From contig NC_087377.1 of the NCBI RefSeq assembly GCF_963675165.1, positions 807,501 to 837,500 on the forward strand: a DNA stretch of 30,000 bases, in the 5' to 3' direction. This document shows positions 3,559-28,730 of the stretch, piece by piece. The notes beneath the pieces were generated by a model. The model saw nothing but the letters and a program-made list of their open reading frames with translations. It was not told the DNA's origin and ran no database searches. The position numbers and the translations under genes were made by a program. Position 1 is the stretch's first letter. Each line of letters starts with the position of its first letter. This stretch comes from Halichondria panicea (Eukaryota; Porifera; Demospongiae; Suberitida; Halichondriidae).

Positions 3559-6208
3559 ACACCACACACACACTCCACACACACACTCACACACCCACAC
3601 ACACACACACACACACTCCACACACACCCACTCACCACTGTGGTCGTCTGATCCTATTCTTTGTGGAGTGAACGGGACATGACCAAAAGCCCACAGTCCA
3701 CTGTCTTATAGAATCCTGCATTCTGATTGGACGGTTTCAGGTTTGATACTCGTTGTTGCCGTGGCGACTTAGACCCGTTACCTCTTCCGCGAGGTCGATC
3801 TCGAGATGAAATGGTTGTCGTGGTAACCGCTGTGGCAATAGCTCTCGTAGCGTTGATGGGGGTGATAGTCACGGAGGGTTTTGATTGGTTTCTTAGCAAC
3901 AGGACGAGTTTTTTTCGGAGAAGGGAGGGGATTGGGTGGACCAGGGGAACGCTGTGTGGACATGTATAATTATATAATGGTGAAATAAAATTTAACACTC
4001 AAGGTCACCAATGTATAATCAATAAGCACCCTCTGTAATACAGCCAGGTTAATGGGTCCCAAAGTCTCCATAGCATGTGTTTGGACCTGTGTTAGCAGAC
4101 CACCCTCTATAATACAGCCAGGTTAATGGGTCCCAAAGTCTCCATAGCATGTGTTTGGACCTGTGTTAGCAGACCACCCTCTATAATACAGCCAGGTTAA
4201 TGGGTCCCAAAGTCTCCATAGCATGTGTTTGGACCTGTGTTAGCAGACCACCCTCTATAATACAGCCAGGTTAATGGGTCCCAAAGTCTCCATAGCATGT
4301 GTTTGGACCTGTGTTAGCAGGCCACCCTCTATAATACAGCCAGGTTAATGGTCCCCAAAGTCTCCATAGCATGTGTTTGGACCTGTGTTAGCAGGCCACC
4401 CTCTATAACACAGCCAGGTTAATGGGCCCCAAAGTCTCCATAGCATGTGTTTGGACCTGTGTTAGCAGACCACCCTCTATAATACAGCCAGGTTAATGGG
4501 TCCCAAAGTCTCCATAGCATGTGTTTGGACCTGTGTTAGCAGGCCACCCTCTATAATACAGCCAGGTTAATGGTCCCCAAAGTCTCCATAGCATGTGTTT
4601 GGACCTGTGTTAGCAGGCCACCCTCTATAACACAGCCAGGTTAATGGGCCCCAAAGTCTCCATAGCATGTGTTTGGACCTGTGTTAGCAGACCACCCTCT
4701 ATAATACAGCCAGGTTAATGGGTCCCAAAGTCTCCATAGCATGTGTTTGGACCTGTGTTAGCAGGCCACCCTCTATAATACAGCCAGGTTAATGGTCCCC
4801 AAAGTCTCCATAGCATGTGTTTGGACCTGTGTTAGCAGGCCACCCTCTATAACACAGCCAGGTTAATGGGCCCCAAAGTCTCCATAGCATGTGTTTGGAC
4901 CTGTGTTAGCAGACCACCCTCTATAATACAGCCAGGTTAATGGGTCCCAAAGTCTCCATAGCATGTGTTTGGACCTGTGTTAGCAGGCCACCCTCTATAA
5001 TACAGCCAGGTTAATGGTCCCCAAAGTCTCCATAGCATGTGTTTGGACCTGTGTTAGCAGGCCACCCTCTATAACACAGCCAGGTTAATGGGCCCCAAAG
5101 TCTCCATAGCATGTGTTTGGACCTGTGTTAGCAGACCACCCTCTATAATACAGCCAGGTTAATGGGTCCCAAAGTCTCCATAGCATGTGTTTGGACCTGT
5201 GTTAGCAGGCCACCCTCTATAATACAGCCAGGTTAATGGGCCCCAGGGTCTCCATAGCATGTGTTTGGACCTGTGTTAGCAGACCACCCTCTATAATACA
5301 GCCAGGTTAATGGGTCCCAAAGTCTCCATAGCATGTGTTTGGACCTGTGTTAGCAGACCACCCTCTATAATACAGCCAGGTTAATGGGTCCCAAAGTCTC
5401 CATAGCATGTGTTTGGACCTGTGTTAGCACACCACCCTCTATAATACAGCCAGGTTAATGGGTCCCAAAGTCTCCATAGCATGTGTTTGGACCTGTGTTA
5501 GCAGACCACCCTCTATAATACAGCCAGGTTAATGGGTCCCAAAGTCTCCATAGCATGTGTTTGGACCTGTGTTAGCAGACCACCCTCTATAATACAGCCA
5601 GGTTAATGGGTCCCAAAGTCTCCATAGCATGTGTTTGGACCTGTGTTAGCAGACCACCCTCTATAATACAGCCACTGTTGGTCTACCCACCACTATACAT
5701 ATACAGGGTATACTAATAGTAAGGTACTCACAAAGACATTAGTGACATGGTTGGTGGTTCCTGTGATCCTGGACACCACCTCACACACTTGCCAGATACT
5801 GGGACGAAGCTTAGGGTCAGAGGTCAACAGATAGCCTACAAAGGGGACAATGATATACGTATCATTATAATAATAGAGCAATACACTTGAGGCTGGCAGA
5901 ATATCATAGCACCTGTAGCTAGTGTGTGTTCTCAAAGTTAGCTCTGAAAACAGGTTCATTTCACAAAGAAAAAACTCACTATCAATAGTCTTTATAATTA
6001 AAGGCTTAAAGTTAACATAATCATGTGTAAACCTGGCTACATTTCACTAGGATGTGTGTGTGTGGGTGTGGTCTCACCTCTCAAGTTGCAGGTCTTGTGT
6101 GTAGGGAGAGTCTTCAGGAATGCTGTACTGAGCACTGACTATGGCTAGAGGGTTGTCACCAAATGGAGTATCCATGAAGCACAGCTTGAACAGTAGTACA
6201 CCCAGTGC
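2903..6208 (-). CDS. NAK-family (AAK1/BIKE/GAK-like) protein kinase, 3' part; possibly broken
   Basis: There are four exon-like segments on the minus strand. Exon a (6208-6078) encodes ALGVLLFKLC..DTPFGDNPLAIVS..YSIPEDSPYTQDL, the kinase helix F to G region, which closely resembles AAK1-type kinases (ALG.LLYKLC...PFG). Exon b (5835-5732) encodes LTSDPKLRPSIWQVCEVV, the conserved kinase Arg of subdomain XI (P..RP). Exon c (3951-3782 or longer) encodes a basic, Pro-rich linker. Exon d (3094-2903) encodes a tail with DLFGAPPF and ends at TGA. Kinases of this family phosphorylate clathrin-adaptor subunits and carry short endocytic motifs in the tail, so DLFGAPPF fits. No VAIK, HRD or DFG exon is visible upstream, so the gene is 5' truncated here. 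Exon a as written ends in phase 2 while exon b needs phase 1, giving a stop soon after the joint; a 2-base loss is likely. Confidence 0.65.
3096..3225. repeat. (GT)n-rich microsatellite
   Basis: This is an impure GT run with GG interruptions, lying directly at the acceptor of the kinase C-terminal exon. Read on the minus strand it supplies the CA-rich tract and the acceptor AG. The open frames over it (VCVC or HTHT) are artefacts. Confidence 0.9.
3268..3310. repeat. Diverged single copy of the 74-bp satellite unit
   Basis: 'caccctctataatacagcca' followed by 'ggtttaataagggaccca' matches the first half of the 74-bp unit at 4027-5673, but lies about 700 bp outside the array. It could be an ancestral copy or an escaped monomer. 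Confidence 0.6.
3523..3633. repeat. (CA)n microsatellite with ACTC interruptions
   Basis: A long CA run is broken by CACCACAC and ACACTC steps. It lies in the last intron of the kinase model. No coding content. Confidence 0.9.
3654..3951 (-). CDS. Basic linker exon of the NAK-like kinase; frame uncertain
   Basis: After a TCCACACAG acceptor the phase-0 frame reads RSPGPPNPLPSPKKTRPVAK then KPIKT. This fits the phase-0 end of the preceding kinase exon and is plausible Pro/Lys-rich linker. That frame stops at 3778. Another frame of the same strand, open across the whole segment, looks more protein-like in the second half (ISSRDRPRGRGNGSKSPRQQ, then NAGFYKTVDCGLL). So either the exon ends at the GTAACG donor (exon end 3782), or one base was gained, for example in the A7 run. 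The coding call is moderate and the exact structure is unsettled. Confidence 0.4.
4027..5673. repeat. 74-bp satellite, 22 units plus a partial one
   Basis: The unit runs from 'caccctctataatacagcca' through 'tgtttggacctgtgttagca' to 'gac'. Starts fall exactly every 74 bases from 4027 to 5655, so all 22 full units have the same length. From 4249 to 5136 a three-unit pattern repeats four times with a 222-bp period: type 1 has gggtccc and ends gcaggc; type 2 has ggtcccc and ends gcaggc; type 3 has aacacag, gggcccc and ends agac. Units on both flanks are plain monomers. Neither strand has a long open frame. The array lies inside a kinase intron in my model. Confidence 0.97.
5732..5835 (-). CDS. 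Kinase exon, subdomain XI of the NAK-like kinase
   Basis: The exon runs from a CCCTTTGTAG acceptor to a GTGAGT donor, 104 bp, starting with two bases of a split codon and ending in phase 0. It encodes YLLTSDPKLRPSIWQV followed by CEVVSRITGTTNHVTN. DPKLRPSIWQV matches the end of kinase domains of the AAK1/GAK group, where (D/N)P..R.(D/S)I.(Q/E)V is the usual pattern. Confidence 0.72.
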
Positions 6209-9735: not shown

Positions 9736-9857
9736 TGAGTACTGCCGAGTGCAGAGTGTGACTCTTTCCCTGACCAAACTTTGATCTGAGCATATTCATG
9801 TGATAGGTCTTATCTAACAGTGCTTGGAATAGTTATTCGCTGTACTCCCCCCTAGTG

Positions 9858-12800
9858 TTTACGTTCCCGTGGGTGGGTTCAATTCACTAGCAATAGTTTT
9901 GCGTTCCGTGGGTGGGTTCAATTCACTAGCAATAGTTTTGCGTTCCCGTGAGTGGGTTTAATTCACTAGCAATAGTTTTGCGTTCCCGTGAGTAGGTTCA
10001 ATTCACTATCAATAGTTTTAAGTTCCCGTGAGTGGGTTCAATTAATTCACTAGCAATAGTTTTACGTTCCCGTGAGTGGGTTCAATTCACTAGCAATAGT
10101 TTTGCGTTCCCGTGAGTGGGTTCAATTCACCAGCAATAGTTTTGCGTTCCCGTGAGTGGGTTTAATTCACCAGCAATAGTTTTGCGTTCCCGTGGGTGGG
10201 TTCAATTCACCAGCAATAGTTTTACGTTCCCGTGGGTGGGTTCAATTCACTAGCAATAGTTTTGCGTTCTCGTGAGTGGGTTCAATTCACTAGCAATAGT
10301 TTTGCGTTCCCGTGGGTGGGTTCAATTCACTAGCAATAGTTTTGCGTTCCCGTGGGTGGGTTCAATTCACTAGCAATAGTTTTGCGTTCCCGTGGGTGGG
10401 TTCAATTCACTAGCAATAGTTTTGCGTTCCCGTGGGTGGGTTCAATTCACTAGCAATAGTTTTGCGTTCCCGTGAGTGGGTTCAATTCACTAGCAATAGT
10501 TTTGCGTTCCCGTGAGTGGGTTCAATTCACTAGCAATAGTTTTGCGTTCCCGTGAGTGGGTTCAATTCACTAGCAATAGTTTTGCTTTCCCGTGGGTGGG
10601 TTCAATTCACTAGCAATAGTTTTGCGTTCCCGTGGGTGGGTTCAATTCACCAGCAATAGTTTTACGTTCCCGTGGGTGGTCACTAGCAATAGTTTTGCGT
10701 TCCCGTGAGTGGGTTCAATTCACTAGCAATAGTTTTGCGTTCCCGTTGGTGGGTTCAATTCACTAGCAATAGTTTTGCGTTCCCGTGGGTGGGTTCAATT
10801 CACTAGCAATAGTTTTGCGTTCCCGTGAGTGGGTTCAATTCACTAGCAATAGTTTTGCGTTCCCGTGAGTGGGTTCAATTCACTAGCAATAGTTTTGCGT
10901 TCCCGTGGGTGGGTTCAATTAACCAGCAATAGTTTTACGTTCCCGTGGGTGGGTTCAATTCACTAGCAATAGTTTTGCGTTCCCGTGACTGGGTTCAATT
11001 CACTAACAATAGTTTTGCGTTCCCGTGGGTGGGTTCAATTCACTAGCAATAGTTTTAAGTTGTCGTGAGTGGTCACTAGCAATAGTTTTGCGTTCCCGTG
11101 GGTGGGTTCAATTCACTAGCAATAGTTTTAAGTTCCTGTGAGTGGTCACTAGCAATAGTTTTGCGTTCTTGTGAGTGGGTTCAATTCACTAGTAATAGTT
11201 TTGTGTTCTCGTGAGTGGGTTCAATTCACTAGCAATAGTTTTGCATTCCCTTGAGTGGGTTCAATTCACTAGCAATAGTTTTACGTTCCCGTGAGTGGGT
11301 TCAATTCACTAGCAATAGTTTTGCGTTCCCGTGAGTGGGTTCAATTCACTAGCAATAGTTTTGCGTTCCCGTTGGTGGATTCAATTCACTAGCAATAGTT
11401 TTGCGTTCCCGTGGGTGGGTTCAATTCACTAGCAATAGTTTTGCGTTCCCGTGAGTGGGTTCAATTCACTAGCAATAGTTTTGCGTTCCCGTTGGTGGGT
11501 TCAATTCACTAGCAATAGTTTTGCGTTCCCGTGGGTGGGTTCAATTCACTAGCAATAGTTTTGCGTTCCCGTGAGTGGGTTCAATTCACTAGCAATAGTT
11601 TTGCGTTCCCGTGAGTGGGTTCAATTCACTAGCAATAGTTTTGCGTTCCCGTGAGTGGGTTCAATTCACTAGCAATAGTTTTGCTTTCCCGTGGGTGGGT
11701 TCAATTCACTAGCAATAGTTTTGCGTTCCCGTGGGTGGGTTCAATTCACCAGCAATAGTTTTACGTTCCCGTGGGTGGTCACTAGCAATAGTTTTGCGTT
11801 CCCGTGAGTGGGTTCAATTCACTAGCAATAGTTTTGCGTTCCCGTGACTGGGTTCAATTCACTAGCAATAGTTTTGCGTTCCCGTGACTGGGTTCAATTC
11901 ACTAGCAATAGTTTTGCGTTCCCGTGACTGGGTTCAATTCACTAGCAATAGTTTTGCGTTCCCGTGGGTGGGTTCAATTCACTAGCAATAGTTTTAAGTT
12001 CCTGTGAGTGGTCACTAGCAATAGTTTTGCGTTCTTGTGAGTGGGTTCAATTCACTAGTAATAGTTTTGTGTTCTCGTGAGTGGGTTCAATTCACTAGCA
12101 ATAGTTTTGCATTCCCTTGAGTGGGTTCAATTCACTAGCAATAGTTTTACGTTCCCGTGAGTGGGTTCAATTCACTAGCAATAGTTTTGCGTTCCCGTGA
12201 GTGGGTTCAATTCACTAGCAATAGTTTTGCGTTCCCGTTGGTGGATTCAATTCACTAGCAATAGTTTTGCGTTCCCGTGGGTGGGTTCAATTCACTAGCA
12301 ATAGTTTTGCGTTCCCGTGAGTGGGTTCAATTCACTAGCAATAGTTTTGCGTTCCCGTGAGTGGGTTCAATTCACTAGCAATAGTTTTGCTTTCCCGTGG
12401 GTGGGTTCAATTCACTAGCAATAGTTTTGCGTTCCCGTTGGTGGATTCAATTCACTAGCAATAGTTTTGCGTTCCCGTGGGTGGGTTCAATTCACCAGCA
12501 ATAGTTTTACGTTCCCGTGGGTGGTCACTAGCAATAGTTTTGCGTTCCCGTGAGTGGGTTCAATTCACTAGCAATAGTTTTGCGTTCCCGTTGGTGGGTT
12601 CAATTCACTAGCAATAGTTTTGCGTTCCCGTGGGTGGGTTCAATTCACTAGCAATAGTTTTGCGTTCCCGTGAGTGGGTTCAATTCACTAGCAATAGTTT
12701 TGCGTTCCCGTGAGTGGGTTCAATTCACTAGCAATAGTTTTGCGTTCCCGTGAGTGGGTTCAATTCACTAGCAATAGTTTTGCTTTCCCGTGGGTGGGTT

Positions 12801-15800
12801 CAATTCACTAGCAATAGTTTTGCGTTCCCGTGGGTGGGTTCAATTCACCAGCAATAGTTTTACGTTCCCGTGGGTGGTCACTAGCAATAGTTTTGCGTTC
12901 CCGTGAGTGGGTTCAATTCACTAGCAATAGTTTTGCGTTCCCGTTGGTGGGTTCAATTCACTAGCAATAGTTTTGCGTTCCCGTGGGTGGGTTCAATTCA
13001 CTAGCAATAGTTTTGCGTTCCCGTGAGTGGGTTCAATTCACTAGCAATAGTTTTGCGTTCCCGTGAGTGGGTTCAATTCACTAGCAATAGTTTTGCGTTC
13101 CCGTGGGTGGGTTCAATTAACCAGCAATAGTTTTACGTTCCCGTGGGTGGGTTCAATTCACTAGCAATAGTTTTGCGTTCCCGTGACTGGGTTCAATTCA
13201 CTAACAATAGTTTTGCGTTCCCGTGGGTGGGTTCAATTCACTAGCAATAGTTTTAAGTTGTCGTGAGTGGTCACTAGCAATAGTTTTGCGTTCCCGTGGG
13301 TGGGTTCAATTCACTAGCAATAGTTTTAAGTTCCTGTGAGTGGTCACTAGCAATAGTTTTGCGTTCTTGTGAGTGGGTTCAATTCACTAGTAATAGTTTT
13401 GTGTTCTCGTGAGTGGGTTCAATTCACTAGCAATAGTTTTGCATTCCCTTGAGTGGGTTCAATTCACTAGCAATAGTTTTACGTTCCCGTGAGTGGGTTC
13501 AATTCACTAGCAATAGTTTTGCGTTCCCGTGAGTGGGTTCAATTCACTAGCAATAGTTTTGCGTTCCCGTTGGTGGATTCAATTCACTAGCAATAGTTTT
13601 GCGTTCCCGTGGGTGGGTTCAATTCACTAGCAATAGTTTTGCGTTCCCGTGAGTGGGTTCAATTCACTAGCAATAGTTTTGCGTTCCCGTTGGTGGGTTC
13701 AATTCACTAGCAATAGTTTTGCGTTCCCGTGGGTGGGTTCAATTCACTAGCAATAGTTTTGCGTTCCCGTGAGTGGGTTCAATTCACTAGCAATAGTTTT
13801 GCGTTCCCGTGAGTGGGTTCAATTCACTAGCAATAGTTTTGCGTTCCCGTGAGTGGGTTCAATTCACTAGCAATAGTTTTGCTTTCCCGTGGGTGGGTTC
13901 AATTCACTAGCAATAGTTTTGCGTTCCCGTGGGTGGGTTCAATTCACCAGCAATAGTTTTACGTTCCCGTGGGTGGTCACTAGCAATAGTTTTGCGTTCC
14001 CGTGAGTGGGTTCAATTCACTAGCAATAGTTTTGCGTTCCCGTGACTGGGTTCAATTCACTAGCAATAGTTTTGCGTTCCCGTGACTGGGTTCAATTCAC
14101 TAGCAATAGTTTTGCGTTCCCGTGACTGGGTTCAATTCACTAGCAATAGTTTTGCGTTCCCGTGGGTGGGTTCAATTCACTAGCAATAGTTTTAAGTTCC
14201 TGTGAGTGGTCACTAGCAATAGTTTTGCGTTCTTGTGAGTGGGTTCAATTCACTAGTAATAGTTTTGTGTTCTCGTGAGTGGGTTCAATTCACTAGCAAT
14301 AGTTTTGCATTCCCTTGAGTGGGTTCAATTCACTAGCAATAGTTTTACGTTCCCGTGAGTGGGTTCAATTCACTAGCAATAGTTTTGCGTTCCCGTGAGT
14401 GGGTTCAATTCACTAGCAATAGTTTTGCGTTCCCGTTGGTGGATTCAATTCACTAGCAATAGTTTTGCGTTCCCGTGGGTGGGTTCAATTCACTAGCAAT
14501 AGTTTTGCGTTCCCGTGAGTGGGTTCAATTCACTAGCAATAGTTTTGCGTTCCCGTGAGTGGGTTCAATTCACTAGCAATAGTTTTGCTTTCCCGTGGGT
14601 GGGTTCAATTCACTAGCAATAGTTTTGCGTTCCCGTTGGTGGATTCAATTCACTAGCAATAGTTTTGCGTTCCCGTGGGTGGGTTCAATTCACCAGCAAT
14701 AGTTTTACGTTCCCGTGGGTGGTCACTAGCAATAGTTTTGCGTTCCCGTGAGTGGGTTCAATTCACTAGCAATAGTTTTGCGTTCCCGTTGGTGGGTTCA
14801 ATTCACTAGCAATAGTTTTGCGTTCCCGTGGGTGGGTTCAATTCACTAGCAATAGTTTTGCGTTCCCGTGAGTGGGTTCAATTCACTAGCAATAGTTTTG
14901 CGTTCCCGTGAGTGGGTTCAATTCACTAGCAATAGTTTTGCGTTCCCGTGGGTGGGTTCAATTAACCAGCAATAGTTTTACGTTCCCGTGGGTGGGTTCA
15001 ATTCACTAGCAATAGTTTTGCGTTCCCGTGACTGGGTTCAATTCACTAACAATAGTTTTGCGTTCCCGTTGGTGGGTTCAATTCACTAGCAATAGTTTTA
15101 AGTTGTCGTGAGTGGTCACTAGCAATAGTTTTGCGTTCCCGTGGGTGGGTTCAATTCACTAGCAATAGTTTTAAGTTCCTGTGAGTGGTCACTAGCAATA
15201 GTTTTGCGTTCTTGTGAGTGGGTTCAATTCACTAGTAATAGTTTTGTGTTCTCGTGAGTGGGTTCAATTCACTAGCAATAGTTTTGCATTCCCTTGAGTG
15301 GATTCAATTCACTAGCAATAGTTTTACGTTCCCGTGAGTGGGTTCAATTCACTAGCAATAGTTTTGCGTTCCCGTGAGTGGGTTCAATTCACTAGCAATA
15401 GTTTTGCGTTCCCGTTGGTGGATTCAATTCACTAGCAATAGTTTTGCGTTCCCGTGGGTGGGTTCAATTCACTAGCAATAGTTTTGCGTTCCCGTGAGTG
15501 GGTTCAATTCACTAGCAATAGTTTTGCGTTCCCGTTGGTGGGTTCAATTCACTAGCAATAGTTTTGCGTTCCCGTGGGTGGGTTCAATTCACTAGCAATA
15601 GTTTTGCGTTCCCGTGAGTGGGTTCAATTCACTAGCAATAGTTTTGCGTTCCCGTGAGTGGGTTCAATTCACTAGCAATAGTTTTGCGTTCCCGTGAGTG
15701 GGTTCAATTCACTAGCAATAGTTTTGCTTTCCCGTGGGTGGGTTCAATTCACTAGCAATAGTTTTGCGTTCCCGTGGGTGGGTTCAATTCACCAGCAATA

Positions 15801-16826
15801 GTTTTACGTTCCCGTGGGTGGTCACTAGCAATAGTTTTGCGTTCCCGTGAGTGGGTTCAATTCACTAGCAATAGTTTTGCGTTCCCGTGACTGGGTTCAA
15901 TTCACTAGCAATAGTTTTGCGTTCCCGTGACTGGGTTCAATTCACTAGCAATAGTTTTGCGTTCCCGTGACTGGGTTCAATTCACTAGCAATAGTTTTGC
16001 GTTCCCGTGGGTGGGTTCAATTCACTAGCAATAGTTTTAAGTTTCTGTGAGTGGTCACTAGCAATAGTTTTGCGTTCTTGTGAGTGGGTTCAATTCACTA
16101 GTAATAGTTTTGTGTTCTCGTGAGTGGGTTCAATTCACTAGCAATAGTTTTGCATTCCCTTGAGTGGGTTCAATTCACTAGCAATAGTTTTACGTTCCCG
16201 TGAGTGGGTTCAATTCACTAGCAATAGTTTTGCGTTCCCGTGAGTGGGTTCAATTCACTAGCAATAGTTTTGCGTTCCCGTTGGTGGATTCAATTCACTA
16301 GCAATAGTTTTGCGTTCCCGTGGGTGGGTTCAATTCACTAGCAATAGTTTTGCGTTCCCGTGAGTGGGTTCAATTCACTAGCAATAGTTTTGCGTTCCCG
16401 TGAGTGGGTTCAATTCACTAGCAATAGTTTTGCTTTCCCGTGGGTGGGTTCAATTCACTAGCAATAGTTTTGCGTTCCCGTTGGTGGATTCAATTCACTA
16501 GCAATAGTTTTGCGTTCCCGTGGGTGGGTTCAATTCACTAGCAATAGTTTTGCGTTCCCGTGAGTGGGTTCAATTCACTAGCAATAGTTTTGCGTTCCCG
16601 TTGGTGGGTTCAATTCACTAGCAATAGTTTTGCGTTCCCGTGGGTGGGTTCAATTCACTAGCAATAGTTTTGCTTTCCCGTGGGTGGGTTCAATTCACTA
16701 GCAATAGTTTTGCGTTCCCGTGGGTGGGTTCAATTCACCAGCAATAGTTTTACGTTCCCGTGGGTGGTCACTAGCAATAGTTTTGCGTTCCCGTGAGTGG
16801 GTTTAATTCACTAACAATAGTTTTTG
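9858..16826. repeat. 40-bp satellite array, about 7 kb, with higher-order structure
   Basis: The consensus unit is ttttgcgttcccgtgagtgg, then gttcaattcactagcaatag. There are roughly 175 units. Most are exactly 40 bp; a recurrent 33-bp variant lacks 7 bases (gtgggtggtcactagc instead of gtgggtgggttcaattcactagc). Rare variants recur in the same order: the 'ttgcattccc' unit begins at 11241, 12107, 13439, 14305, 15284 and 16150. All frames are closed by stops. The edges are less regular than the centre. Confidence 0.97.
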
Positions 16827-17740: not shown

Positions 17741-17749
17741 GTCACTTAG

Positions 17750-18390
17750 TGTGTGTGGGTGTTGTACTTGTGTGTGTGTGTGTGTGTGTGTGTGGGTGTT
17801 GTACTTGTGTGTGTGTGTGTGGGTGTTGTACTTGTGTGTGTGTGTTGTACTTGTGTGTGTGGGTGTTGTACTTGTGTGTGTGTGTTGTACTTGTGTGTGT
17901 GTGTGTGTGTTGTACTTGTGTGTGTGGGTGTTGTACTTGTGTGTGTGTGTGTGTTGTACTTGTGTGTGTGTGGGTGTTGTACTTGTGTGTGTGTGTGTGT
18001 GTTGTACTTGTGTGTGTGGGTGTTGTACTTGTGTGTGTGTGTTGTACTTGTGTGTGTGGTACTTGTGTGTGTGTGTTGTACTTGTGTGTGTGGGTGTTGT
18101 ACTTGTGTGTGTGTGTTGTACTTGTGTGTGTGGGTGTTGTACTTGTGTGTGTGTGGGTGTTGTGTGTGTGTTGTACTTGTGTGTGTGTGGGTGTTGTACT
18201 TGTGTGTGTGTGGTGTTGTGTGTGTGTGGGTGTTGTACTTGTGTGTGTGGGTGTTGTACTTGTGTGTGTGTGTGTTGTACTTGTGTGTGTGTGGGTGTTG
18301 TACTTGTGTGGGTGTTGTACTTGTGTGTGTGTGGGTGTTGTACTTGTGTGTGTGTGGGTGTTGTACTTGTGTGTGTGTGTGGGTGTGTTT
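17750..18390. repeat. TGTTGTACTTG(TG)n minisatellite, array 1
   Basis: The core gttgtacttg alternates with (tg)4-10, often with a ggg interruption, giving units of roughly 16-30 bp. Very long open frames on both strands (VCVCCTC or HKYNTHT) come from the absence of stops in the unit and are not genes. Confidence 0.95.
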
Positions 18391-19286: not shown

Positions 19287-19922
19287 GGTGGGTGAAACCC
19301 CACATGGATGGAGGACCCTACAGAGATGGTGTTGTACTTGTGTGTGTGTGTGTGTGGGTGTTGTACTTGTACTTGTGTGTGTGGGTGTTGTACTTGTGTG
19401 TGTGGGTGTTGTACTTGTGTGTGTGGGTGTTGTACTTGTGTGTGTGTGTTGTACTTGTGTGTGTGTGTGTTGTACTTGTGTGTGTGTGTGTGTGTTGTAC
19501 TTGTGTGTGTGGGTGTTGTACTTGTGTGTGTGGGTGTTGTACTTGTACTTGTGTGTGTGTGTGTTGTACTTGTGTGTGTGGGTGTTGTACTTGTGTGTGT
19601 GTGGGTGTTGTACTTGTGTGTGTGTGTTGTACTTGTGTGTGTGTGTTGTACTTGTGTGTGTGTGTTGTACTTGTGTGTGTGTGTTGTACTTGTGTGTATG
19701 TGTTGTACTTGTGTGTGTGGGTGTTGTACTTGTGTGTGTGTGTTGTACTTGTGTGTGTGGGTGTTGTACTTGTGTGTGTGTGTGTGTTGTACTTGTGTGT
19801 GTGTGTTGTACTTGTGTGTGTGTGTTGTACTTGTGTGTGTGTGTTGTACTTGTGTGTGTGTGTTGTACTTGTGTGTATGTGTTGTACTTGTGTGTGTGGG
19901 TGTTGTACTTGTGTGTGTGTGT
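19232..19922. repeat. TGTTGTACTTG(TG)n minisatellite, array 2
   Basis: The array begins with a pure (GT)n run, then about 50 unique bases (19281-19329), then the same unit as array 1, including gttgtacttgtacttg doublets and tgtatg variants. It has the same orientation as array 1. The long open frames are artefacts. Confidence 0.95.
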
Positions 19923-24770: not shown

Positions 24771-27700
24771 TCAAGCAACTCCAGTATCTGTATGAAAGCA
24801 TGAGCACAATAAACTAGAGCCTTATAAGCAAAACATTGTGTGCAATGAAAATAGGGATCAGATTTATAATTATTCCAGTAATATTTGTATGAAAACATGA
24901 GTGCATGATACATGATTTAGGAGCCCTCAGGGCTAGTAGAACCCTCAAGTACTTAGAATGCTGTATACTATTATTGCATGGCACTACTGACGAGCAAGTT
25001 CACAAAGGTAATGGTGAAAGTGATGATTCACTAGGTAACTCACTGGTATGCTCCACACAGGCCTTGTGAATGCTGCGAACTGCCTCTCCGTCCTCAATCT
25101 CTGAGGCAATTTCCACTAATCGACCGTAAGTAGCTGTTGAATTCAATGGATTGATTTGAAGAATATTTTTACTCTTCCACTTCTTTAGAGCAGCGTGAAA
25201 TTTCTCTGAAACACCAACAAATATGTGATCGATATTCTCAACTTCAGTCTTGCTGAGGCCCAGCCTGTGCTTGTATGTTTCATAGCCAGCAATCTCGGTA
25301 GACAACTGGAGAAGAGCTCCATTCGAGCACTCTTGACTCAACTGAGCTGTGGTCGCTGTCACTATCGTCTCATGAACTGTAGAGATCAAAATACCTCATC
25401 AATGACATGCAACGCACGTGGTAGCATAATTAGAAATGCAAATACTCCATCACTGTCACATGATATACACAATACAACTGTCAAAGCTACTCGAACCACT
25501 TTAGACTATAATTATACTGAAGATGGTTAGATTGACTATAATTATGTGATGCATAACTATAGTGCATGATCACATTCCCATGAAGTGGTTCCCTAATTAA
25601 GCTTAATCCTTCACACTAATCAATCATGACAACAAATGCTAGGATTGGGCAGGGAAAGCACCAAATAGCACGGAAATAAGCAAGTATAATTATAGGAGAG
25701 AACCAACCAATGACACAATGACATTGACAGTATCACAGTTTAAAATAGCAAACACTTAATGAAAGTACAATTCACTATAAGAAGTAGTATAACTCACTAG
25801 TATGCTCCACACAGGCCTTGTGAATGCTGCGAACTGCCTCTCCGTCCTCAATCTTGGTAGCAATCTCCACAAATCGACCGTAAGTAGCTGTTGAATTCAA
25901 TGGATTGTTAAAAATGATGCTTTTACTCTTCCACTTCTTTAGAGCAACGTGGAATCTCCCAGGGATATTATTAACGGTGGTAGGATTCTGATCGATAGTG
26001 TCTATCTCAGCATCACTGAGGCCCAGCCTGTGCTTGTATCTGTCATAACCAGCAACCTTGGTAGACAACTGGCGAAGAGCTTCATCTGAGCACTCTTGAT
26101 TCAACTGAGCGGCAGTCGCTGCCACTATCATCTGATGTGGTTGAACTGTATAGATAAACATAATTATGTTCTAAAAATAATATAACGCATAATTATTATA
26201 GTCAATCATGTACTTACAGTAGCTGTGAAAATACTATGTGGAGTGGCTAGTTGAGTGTATATATTTGACGAAGATGACAGAATCATTTGTTTCATTATTT
26301 TCAACTGTAATGATAGATCATACCTTGTACAGTGCCATCATTCTTCGGAACCTTTGACAGAGTTTCAACTGATGGCAATGATATTTTGCGCTGGCCTGAG
26401 GCTGCAGGAATATAGATACAGTGCTGTGTCATCTTTTACAAATTAAGTTGTTACACTGACAGCATGTGCTACATTGAGAGACCTACATGCATGTACATGT
26501 ACATGTCCAGTAATATAATAGTTATATAGGTATGTTATAGCATGATCTCACGTACGGTCCACAGAAGTCTCACTGCCCAGTACTGATGGTTGTGATGATG
26601 CCGCACTGGCTACACTCATAGATGGACAACACACCGAGAGCCAATTTTTGTGACCGTTTCCTAACTTATACGTCATCCTGTTGCGTTGAGTACACCTCAT
26701 AGAAGTGCCCTTACCCAGAACACGAGCTGGGTGGTGGGGCACTTGGGGACTTGCACTTGCTTCAGTGGAGGGAAATTCATGGGGACATAAAAATGCAACT
26801 TCAGGATCCTCATACGTGTATTTCAGGGCATTGTAAGCAGATCGAAGACCAGAGTGAACGTTTTCATATATCAAAGACAGCAGTTCTTTTTGATTACTGC
26901 TGGAATGAACTTCAAGGAATGAAAATCCATCAATTAGCGTGATAAAACAATCTTCCTCTCGATGAATCAATTGTACAAAGTTTCTACTCGGCTGGTGATC
27001 CTCTTCAATTTCCCATTCACATTCTTTAATCAGATACACTTGTAGACAGCAAAACACTCCACAGCACTGCCAGTTGCTTTTGAAGTATAAAACGAGTGGG
27101 ATCAAACCGGTCTTAAGCAAATCAGCTCGTTTGTCATTGACTTGAGTTGGTGGCAGCAAGGATAGAAGTGATGGCATATAGAAACACTTATCTTTCCCGA
27201 CTTCTTGTGAGAATAAACGAAATGGGGTGGCTATCAGCAAGTGCTTGAATATTTCAATGAGATGAGTGGGCGCAAAGAGTCCATTGATGTAGTGCTTTTC
27301 AAAATTTTTATCAGATAAAAGTTCAATCGTAATAATTCCTTTATCGGTAAAATCTAACCATGTTCCAAACCCATTACTTCCTCGCATGTATGCAGCATAC
27401 TCGACAAGCTCTGTTACTTTATCGAGAAGCACTTGAGTATCACAGAATACCACATTTGGTAGAATGGCAGGATAATAGTGAAAGATGTGATGCTCATGGA
27501 AAAATTTCAAAGCTTCACAAAGTGCATCTTCGTGAAAATTATGTAGCATTTTTGCAATTTCTACACATTCGGTCTTGCTTAGAACTTTTCTTTTTTCATC
27601 GTTTAAAACCTTCTCAACAATAATTTCCAAAATAAACCACCAAAAAGGGACCAGGATTTCAAATTTATTCAGCTCTTGAGATGCTTTGTAAATACATCCA

Positions 27701-28730
27701 CGAATTTTCTTCGCCAATTCCTCACTGTCAGAATCGCAGTGCTTGCTATCCACAGGAAATATGACATCTCTTTTCCCTAAATTAAAAAACATAGTCAACT
27801 TCTTAATACAGTCTTTCTGCGCAAAGTTCAATAAAGTTTTATTCTTGTCAGACAATGTTTCCTTGCATTTGGATTGATGGTCTTTGTGAGTACCAATGCA
27901 TACCAGCTTGCAGTTTTCACTGTGAGATTGAATGGACTGCACGAGATACTTGAAGTTATCCAAAACTGAGAGATGTGACTTGAAACCTTTACCAACTGGC
28001 TTATCGTCCTTGTAGTATTCAACCAGTGGATGATCGTCAAGGCAGTCAGAGAGACGAAGAATGTACAAAGCTACAGAAATCTTGGGCATGAAGAGTGGCA
28101 GCAGATTATGAAAGTGTGGTTGCCCACCGCTATCGATTATGTAGATCCAATGAGATCCAAACTTTTCTTGAACAGCAGTACGATCAGCATCAGAAAATCG
28201 CTGAATATTCGCCATTACATTTGAAATAGTGCTAAGAAATTTACTCTTTTTTCCTTCTAGCTTACTATGCGTTGCTCCAGCTACTAATGGTTTAGTTGCT
28301 CTTGAAGTTGAAGGAGTTGCATCAACTGGCGTCGTATTTGATGCATTGCTAAGTTTAAGTTGCTTCAAAGCAATGCTGAGTTCTTGTGGGATAGCAGATT
28401 CTTCGCTGGTTACATGAGATTTAATAGCATCAGCAACAATGCGTTGTAAGTCATCACCAGTTACTGGTTTCCATGTTCTAGAGGGATCTTCTTGAGCTTC
28501 CGTTCTCAGCTTTGTAGTGTCACGAATTTGTCGTATCCTCTCTGCTGTGCTAGCTAATGGAGTGCTGTTTCGATCTACAGGAGGAGGCTGTCCCAGAAGG
28601 AGATGCTTAGTGGAGGTTTTACCAGTGCCAGCCATTCCAAAGAATAAGATATTGGTAGTGTTCACACGGACAAATCCAGCCTTCATGGCTTCATTAAGAG
28701 CTTGCTCAGACTTGGATGATTCATTGAGGG
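24771..28730 (-). CDS. Roc-COR-like GTPase with two C-terminal death-domain modules (5' end missing)
   Basis: The exons are 28730-26556 (725 codons), 26401-26324 (26 codons), 26145-25798 (116 codons), 25376-25044 (111 codons) and possibly 24787-24771 (AT ACT GGA GTT GCT TGA). The readable junctions are phase 1 and join without a stop: D-C|CC TCA, CAA-G|TT CAA, ACC-A|TT CAT, ACC-A|AT ACT. The product would be a cytosolic signalling GTPase: the Roc-type domain binds GTP, the following COR-like region usually dimerises, and the death domains recruit partners. No start codon was assigned, because the GTPase exon begins with a split codon after TTATTTCAG and its upstream exon was not found in 28731-30000. 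Close relatives often carry ankyrin or other repeats at that end. Introns are short (154-421 bp). The frame shows no lesions, so the gene looks live. Confidence 0.82.
25044..25376 (-). CDS. Death-domain exon 2 of the GTPase gene
   Basis: A 333-bp exon, phase 1-1, between TCTCTACAG and GTGAGT. It carries the same fold as the exon at 25798-26145 (YETYKHRLGLSKTEVENID, FHAALKKWKSK, NSTATYGRLVEIASEIEDGE, AVRSIHKACVEHT), with variation concentrated in the loop between helices 2 and 4. It arose by tandem exon duplication. Alternative use of one or both copies would keep the frame. Confidence 0.78.
25798..26145 (-). CDS. Death-domain exon 1 of the GTPase gene
   Basis: A 348-bp exon, phase 1-1, between ATCTATACAG and GTGAGT. 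Six-helix death-domain pattern: AATAAQLNQECSDEALRQLS, YDRYKHRLGLSDAEIDTID, FHVALKKWKSK, then NSTATYGRFVEIATKIEDGE and AVRSIHKAC. The W in the central helix and ATY..(L/F)VEI near the end are the usual landmarks. It is about 70% identical by eye to the next exon, with a longer loop after IDTID (QNPTTVNNIPG). Confidence 0.78.
26324..26401 (-). CDS. 26-codon linker exon
   Basis: The exon runs from an ATTCCTGCAG acceptor to a GTATGA donor and encodes PSGQRKISLPSVETLSKVPK then NDGTVQ. It is phase 1 at both ends, so it could be skipped without breaking the frame. It is polar and probably flexible, joining the GTPase part to the death domains. Confidence 0.65.
26556..28730 (-). CDS. GTPase exon: Roc-type G domain, COR-like region, Cys/His tail
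   Basis: Counting from the exon start, G1 is GMAGTGKTS at about 32-40, G3 is DSGGQPHFH at about 200-208 (DxGGQ as in Roc and Gα-like proteins), and G4 is GTHKD at about 280-284. Between G1 and G3 lies an unusually long ~155-residue insert, partly low-complexity Ser/Thr (TTPVDATPSTSRATKPL at about 133-149), instead of a short switch I. After the G domain, about 350-640 is a helical, hydrophobic COR-like region (VPFWWFILEIIVEKVL, GLFAPTHLIEIFKHLL). The end holds FLCPHE at about 647 and MRCTQ at about 678, then GHKNWLS, a Cys/His pattern that may bind metal. This is one uninterrupted 2175-bp exon in a region of small exons. Confidence 0.85.

Follow-up and report, generated by a model that had tools for sequence, protein, structure and literature searches.

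A predicted ROCO-type gene with two tandem death-domain exons in the sponge Halichondria panicea, and the differing death-domain cassettes of its close copies

A 30,000-nucleotide stretch of the Halichondria panicea genome (contig NC_087377.1, positions 807,501 to 837,500; "the window" below means this whole stretch) holds on its minus strand a large exon resembling the Roc-COR GTPase unit of ROCO proteins, followed by two exons that appear to encode death domains (DDs). The locus raises two questions: whether these exons form one protein, and how firmly a given GTPase exon is tied to its DDs. We think it probable that they encode a ROCO-type protein, made of Roc, COR, a 26-residue linker and two tandem DDs, which belongs to a large family, carries a swappable 3′ DD cassette and acts as a GTP switch. 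The basis for this reading is computational: the gene structure, the predicted folds, the expansion of the family, and a cassette class that is independent of Roc-COR ancestry.

Gene model and the Roc-COR exon

Five exons were placed on the minus strand, from 28730 to 24771 of the window, by their AG acceptor and GT donor signals. The sequence-only reading of this DNA had proposed symmetric phase 1-1 exons, and its exon coordinates proved exact: every junction with its AG/GT sites is in phase 1, and the joined frame runs for 982 amino acids plus a stop, with no internal stop. The exons, and the features within the first of them, are as follows.

28730-26556, minus: exon E1, 2175 bp, 724 whole codons, phase 1-1; Roc GTPase domain and COR
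28615..28638, minus: G1/P-loop GMAGTGKT, from the sequence; G31, G34, G36 and K37 invariant in 21/21 relatives
28120..28134, minus: G3/switch II DSGGQ, from the sequence; D199, G201, G202 and Q203 invariant in 21/21 relatives
27880..27891, minus: G4 THKD, from the sequence; T280 and D283 invariant in 21/21 relatives
26794..27663, minus: COR region, residues 356-645, from structural alignment; limits approximate, drawn by eye
26401-26324, minus: exon E2, 78 bp, phase 1-1; 26-residue linker, placed by AG/GT sites and frame
26145-25798, minus: exon E3, death domain 1 (DD1), 348 bp, phase 1-1
25376-25044, minus: exon E4, death domain 2 (DD2), 333 bp, phase 1-1; 69% identity to DD1 by alignment
24787-24771, minus: exon E5, 17 bp; 3′ coding end with stop TGA

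The two smallest exons recur in related copies. An exact copy of the 36-base start region of E2 is found 3′ of E1 in paralogs L011 and L023, and 8 of the 17 other close paralogs have a copy of E5 (exact or with one mismatch) on the 3′ side of their E1. The splice signals and the shared frame suggest that the joined exons are transcribed together. E1 begins at an acceptor, so the gene in the window is incomplete at its 5′ end and N-terminus, and the adjoining 5 kb outside the window is a run of N, which may be an assembly gap (L009:1-5000). No start codon, N-terminal domain or 5′ exon could be assigned. In tblastx comparisons between 5′ flanks, the resemblance was mostly that expected of recently duplicated copies and was interrupted by many stops.

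The earlier claim that the G1, G3 and G4 motifs are intact holds, in that all three are present and their key residues are invariant among the aligned relatives. Residues A33 and G279 are likewise invariant in 21/21, and the two middle residues of G4 are variable. The further claim, that this is a ROCO-type GTPase with a COR-like region next to it, is supported by the predicted fold. Residues 17-704 of the E1 model align with the Roc-COR of LRRK2, LRRK1 and C. tepidum Roco, which share this fold; COR follows Roc directly, as one tandem; and the top 25 Foldseek results with the model are all ROCO. Unlike the LRRKs, the readable part of the gene shows no leucine-rich repeat (LRR) or kinase. Compared with the LRRK-like gene of the same genome, the stretch of E1 from G1 to G3 contains about 110 inserted residues, part of which is modelled with low confidence. 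Purifying selection acts on E1 (the selection estimates cover all rows but L036, and the DD figures are complete). In our working model, the window's Roc-COR would bind GTP and dimerise.

A check against sequence profiles gave a mixed result: the Death profile finds the DDs weakly, whereas the window's E1 has no Pfam match to Roc, COR or any other family at E<=1, and no NACHT match, in the readable part of the protein. The Roc profile (E<=1) matches 13 of 21 E1 relatives, the best at 6.7e-4, and COR-A matches none of the 21. A sequence search of the PDB with single proteins gave no match at E<=5; with profile A1 it gave weak matches, mostly to small GTPases (best E 0.37), with the Roc domain of LRRK2 at 0.62. 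No relatives were confirmed in viral, bacterial or archaeal contig collections searched with a single protein and with alignment A1, a result that says little about animals.

A conserved Cys/His tail follows COR at approximately residues 648-701 of E1 (26787-26626), with the pattern CP...HHPA...RC...GHKxWLS.C. It looks metal-binding, and a similar tail (CPCPDH...) is visible by eye in the divergent relative L043. The last 48 codons of E1 have no Pfam match.

Several observations concern the surroundings of E1 in the window and in its relatives. In the window, a peptide before E1 (29180-29060, minus strand; WNALPDEIVSAQTPLIFKNHL...) seems to resemble the last part of a reverse transcriptase from a retrotransposon. 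In L028 (G000:C15:4176100-4186099), a 307-amino-acid frame with a NACHT start (PF05729, E 1.6e-9) lies 5′ of E1 and continues into it in frame, which may reflect a fusion of NACHT to Roc-COR or an intron that is retained. In L024 (G000:C15:725500-735499), a kinase open frame (PF00069, E 6.9e-32) lies upstream of the Roc-COR exon at a distance of about 2.5 kb, in the same gene or a neighbouring one. Runs of N also lie beside other family members (L014:8302-10000 and L018:8402-10000).

The two death domains

Both DDs match the Pfam Death profile (PF00531) below its curated cut-off of 22.6 bits, DD1 with E=1.1e-3 (19.4 bits) and DD2 with E=1.3e-3 (19.2 bits). Across 26 aligned DDs of the family, 23 match at E<=0.1, the best at E=2.1e-7, and a profile of all 26 matches the DD of RIPK1 with E=4.2e-5. 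The model of DD1 is an antiparallel six-helix death fold, and its 22 best Foldseek and 25 best VIA entries are death domains, so that the outcome of some other fold, which the earlier reading had named as refuting, did not occur. The model was made for DD1 only; DD2 probably adopts the same fold, given its 69% identity to DD1. The assignment of two tandem DDs is retained, and the two may assemble homotypically.

The sequence-only reading also held that the divergence between the two DDs is concentrated in one loop, and that this hints at different partners. The first part stands. In the alignment of DD1 with DD2, columns 52-63 differ at 12/12 positions, as against 27/103 elsewhere (Fisher p = 6e-7, a value that is optimistic because the limits of the loop were drawn after the model and the alignment had been inspected). 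The second part is weakened, because this loop, between alpha3 and alpha4, varies more than any other segment in the DD family as a whole (mean entropy 1.81, versus 0.66-1.29 in eight other segments), and because its ratio of nonsynonymous to synonymous change (dN/dS) is close to that of the rest of the domain: pooled over DDs of the window's sequence class (class I), it is 0.45 in the loop versus 0.42 elsewhere, synonymous changes being raised in the loop too. A positively selected partner site in the loop is not supported by these figures. We take the alpha3-alpha4 loop to belong to a known DD interface, an assumption that we do not use as evidence. Nor is there support for a simple picture in which DD1s and DD2s form two old clades, as each label needs 2 changes on the tree (with 18 rows unlabelled and weak support).

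The order of Roc-COR followed by DDs is also that of DAPK1, a metazoan ROCO protein with a C-terminal DD, and the window gene could in principle be a DAPK1-type protein (kinase, ankyrin, Roc-COR, DD) whose N-terminal half lies outside the sequence covered by the gene model. The missing 5′ end and the 5 kb of N next to it leave room for such a half. However, DAPK1 is described, in the part of the source available to us, with one additional death domain (PMC6337361), where the window gene has two. The N-terminal kinase and ankyrin regions of DAPK1 are not seen in the readable part of the gene, and in the near-identical L011 copy, with 12.9 kb of sequence upstream, none of the frames of at least 75 amino acids is kinase-like by eye (judged without a Pfam scan). 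The window gene also differs from DAPK1 in having many related copies whose DDs vary. We regard a DAPK1-type protein as very unlikely, and file the gene as ROCO rather than DAPK1 because it does not end in a single C-terminal DD.

Copies in the genome and their cassettes

We searched the genome (131.5 Mb in 39 contigs) for relatives of E1 and of the DDs. E1 gave at least 69 matches, with 68 of 324 candidates scored, and these form 67 places after split matches are joined; there are thus at least 66 further Roc-COR exons of the window's clade (clade A). Full-length places at >=78% identity number 22 including the window, one of them with an internal stop, and some near-identical copies lie on one contig. 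A second clade (B), searched with L043, an open frame of 794 amino acids, gave at least 64 matches (57 of 336 scored), none of which overlaps a clade-A place. L043 itself has COR-A at 24.2 bits and Roc at 20.5 bits, both under the cut-off. Of the 64 genomic places detected with the COR-A profile (PF16095), 10 belong to clade B, while clade A has none. DD1 gave 116 matches, all 148 candidates being scored. Grouping the 99 strongest yields 76 clusters, of which 56 are single, 17 double and 3 triple.

Two further loci were noted. At L037 (G000:C15:5137632) is an LRRK-like gene, with LRR and kinase by eye, Roc and COR-A above their Pfam cut-offs, and G4 THLD. In L016 (G000:C1:4707000-4716999), a GTPase frame that begins about 3.4 kb 3′ of the clade-A exon resembles clade B by eye, which would place members of the two clades next to each other.

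It could be argued that the DD exons are separate downstream genes or decayed duplicates, and that the Roc-COR protein ends without them. The joining of the exons is a prediction from DNA; 3 of the 18 close copies surveyed below have no DD in their flank; and 52 of the 76 DD clusters have no listed Roc-COR match nearby, perhaps partly because most Roc-COR candidates were left unscored. Two DD loci that we inspected have no Roc-COR frame upstream, one of them having a minisatellite instead. Set against this, the open frame of E1 comes to a GT donor ahead of its stop, and this donor is in phase 1, as are the DD acceptors. Using all 188 listed Roc-COR/COR-A places, 24 of the 76 DD clusters have such a place on their 5′ side, same strand, at a distance of up to 6 kb, versus 1 of 76 on the 3′ side, same strand. 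None lies on the opposite strand within this distance on either side, although these zeros are a weak control because the copies sit in same-strand arrays. Within 10 kb the counts are 27 (5′) and 7 (3′) on the same strand, and 0 and 0 on the opposite strand. All 15 class-I DD exons examined have a phase-1 acceptor and a GTGAGT donor. Because of this conservation and the one-sided linkage, the association of E1 with the DDs is not due to chance. The same order recurs in the divergent clade B, where the Roc-COR exon of L043 is followed by a pair of DDs like that of the window; of the 17 DD pairs, 4 adjoin clade A and 7 adjoin clade B. Finally, a distant relative (C8:6013514-6015808) has a DD above the Pfam cut-off and Roc-COR in the same 860-amino-acid open frame, with the DD N-terminal. 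We therefore find separate genes or decayed duplicates highly improbable.

Three loci deserve mention in their own right. L062 (G000:C1:1579300-1585300) has a DD exon of the window's class beside a large minisatellite, with no Roc-COR frame upstream, and is possibly an orphan exon. The C8 relative just described, in which DD and Roc-COR stand in the reversed order, is L030/L044 (G000:C8:6013000-6015830). At G000:C1:5420915-5424434, the sole case within 6 kb in which a COR-A match lies 3′ of a DD match on the same strand, the distance is 2.9 kb, and this is perhaps another N-terminal arrangement.

We next consider ROCO-type copies with what is probably a swappable cassette. Of the 22 full-length close copies, the survey took in 18, namely the window plus 17 more, each with 4.9-5.1 kb of 3′ flank. 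A DD exon lies 3′ of Roc-COR in 15 of the 18, and these exons fall into two sequence classes. Two class-I DDs are present in four copies (the window, L011, L015 and L023), and one class-I DD in two (L019 and L020). One class-II DD is present in seven copies (L013, L018, L021, L022, L024, L025 and L026), and two class-II-like DDs in two (L014 and L027). In the remaining three (L016, L017 and L028), no DD of either class was found in the approximately 5 kb of 3′ flank; L016 and L017 have identical E1 proteins. The earlier reading had noted that symmetric exons allow splice isoforms with zero, one or two DDs; the variation visible here is between gene copies (two DDs, one, another class, none).

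Class II matches Pfam Death at E<=0.1 in 6 of 8 sequences, none above the cut-off, and its search of the genome gave at least 150 matches (150 of 471 candidates scored). Each of nine class-II exons is preceded by a phase-1 AG and closes with a stop codon, which is TAA in L025 and TGA in the other eight. Copies of E5 are retained both with class I (L011, L020 and L023) and with class II (L013, L014, L018, L021 and L027); given the class-II stop, E5 would stay unread in the latter.

Is the class of a cassette inherited along with its Roc-COR exon? On a tree of 18 E1 proteins and one outgroup, in which 8 of the 15 inner branches are open, and with L016, L017 and L028 left out of the count for want of a DD, the DD class needs 5 changes, of which the branches starred on the tree alone force 4. 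Shuffled labels needed as few changes in 335 of 500 trials for class II and in 353 of 500 for class I, and the DD class is therefore not clustered on the Roc-COR tree. For example, L020 (class I) and L021 (class II) are a starred sister pair only 0.026 changes per site apart, and the window groups at a starred branch with L011 (class I) and with L013 and L014 (class II).

Mosaics are found within class I as well. The window and L011 are 99.5% identical in E1 and 92.2% in DD2, where 26 of 333 positions mismatch versus 13 of 650 in the flanking introns (p 3.6e-5). The window and L023 are 92.6% identical in E1, 97.9% in DD2 and 97.5-98.4% in the introns. These patterns may represent conversion-like exchange between copies, in either direction. 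It should be kept in mind that near-identical copies can also be misassembled, which would weigh against a swappable cassette.

The same observations bear on a more ordinary explanation, in which the genes are ROCO-death proteins like those of placozoans, in a heavily duplicating genome, and the cassette differences arise from neutral unequal crossing-over or gene conversion. The unraised dN/dS of the loop, the conversion-like mosaics and the near-identical copies on one contig are all in its favour. Against it, the DDs that come after Roc-COR are of two different classes, both in open frames and both joined at a boundary in phase 1, and the overall dN/dS of the class-I DDs (approximately 0.42-0.45) indicates that the proteins are maintained. 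We consider this explanation unlikely, though it deserves serious weight.

Other features of the window are its large minisatellites (9853-16824, 4027-5674, 17744-18381 and 19329-19922), which comprise a 40-bp unit x 177, a 74-bp unit x 22 and TG-rich arrays. An ankyrin-repeat frame occurs on both sides of the gene, at 1938-2333 of the window (Ank, E 1.3e-17) and at L009 5906-6259 (by eye), and again upstream of L011 (by eye), marking a duplicated segment. Scans of the window with Rfam (gathering) and for tRNAs were empty.

Known systems and a proposed mechanism

The combination of Roc-COR with a DD is already known from DAPK1 and from placozoans, to the extent that the available parts of the sources describe them (PMC6337361, PMC4104024). 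In the part covered, Trichoplax is reported to have at least 17 ROCO genes, with Roc-COR amid CARD, death and other domains (PMC4104024); as in the sponge family, Roc-COR with DDs has multiplied in an early animal, and that part describes no tandem DDs, cassette swapping or exon phase. Brown-algal LRR-ROCO genes, proposed to be immune receptors, undergo in-phase exon shuffling, although as far as the portion consulted goes the shuffled units are LRR repeats in phase 2 (PMC11378527), whereas those of the window family are C-terminal DDs in phase 1. Among sponges, Amphimedon has a lineage-specific expansion of DD/TRADD-N proteins with one to three death-like domains and variable partner domains; there the DDs are N-terminal, followed by TRADD-N, and the excerpt available describes no Roc-COR (PMC8195603). 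For Dysidea avara, the part of the source available gives 128 DEATH genes, and the legend of an NLR figure includes a COR label (PMC12909245). We found no description of tandem DDs or interchangeable DD cassettes on close Roc-COR copies in the open-licence literature, covered mostly at the level of listings. What appears to be new here is the architecture (tandem DDs) and the evolution (differing cassettes) of a ROCO protein recognized by its predicted fold.

If the window encodes such a protein, it might work as follows. Roc-COR would respond to GTP state, or else to an upstream partner that binds the N-terminus missing from the gene model, and would switch between monomer and dimer, by analogy with bacterial Roco, for which a nucleotide-dependent monomer/dimer cycle is described in the part consulted (PMC6337361). 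A dimer would bring four DDs together, which could be enough to seed death-fold assembly, and the assembly would recruit adaptors of the matching DD class. A cassette swap between Roc-COR copies would then change the adaptor pathway that a given switch feeds. An immune or cell-death role is plausible by analogy. We suggest only tentatively, as something possible and not yet probable, that this is a germline-diversified family of intracellular receptors, in which one GTP switch is wired combinatorially to DD outputs by ongoing exchange of phase-1 exons. If true, the family would be an output-side counterpart of the LRR-exon shuffling of brown-algal ROCO genes.

Roc-COR is the core of the Parkinson's protein LRRK2, and here it is joined, by our gene model, to domains of cell-death signalling. 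Copies with nearly the same switch and a different output would amount to a natural experiment on whether the nucleotide state of Roc-COR gates death-fold assembly. The family may also bear on the ways in which early animals, lacking adaptive immunity, broaden what they can sense inside their cells.

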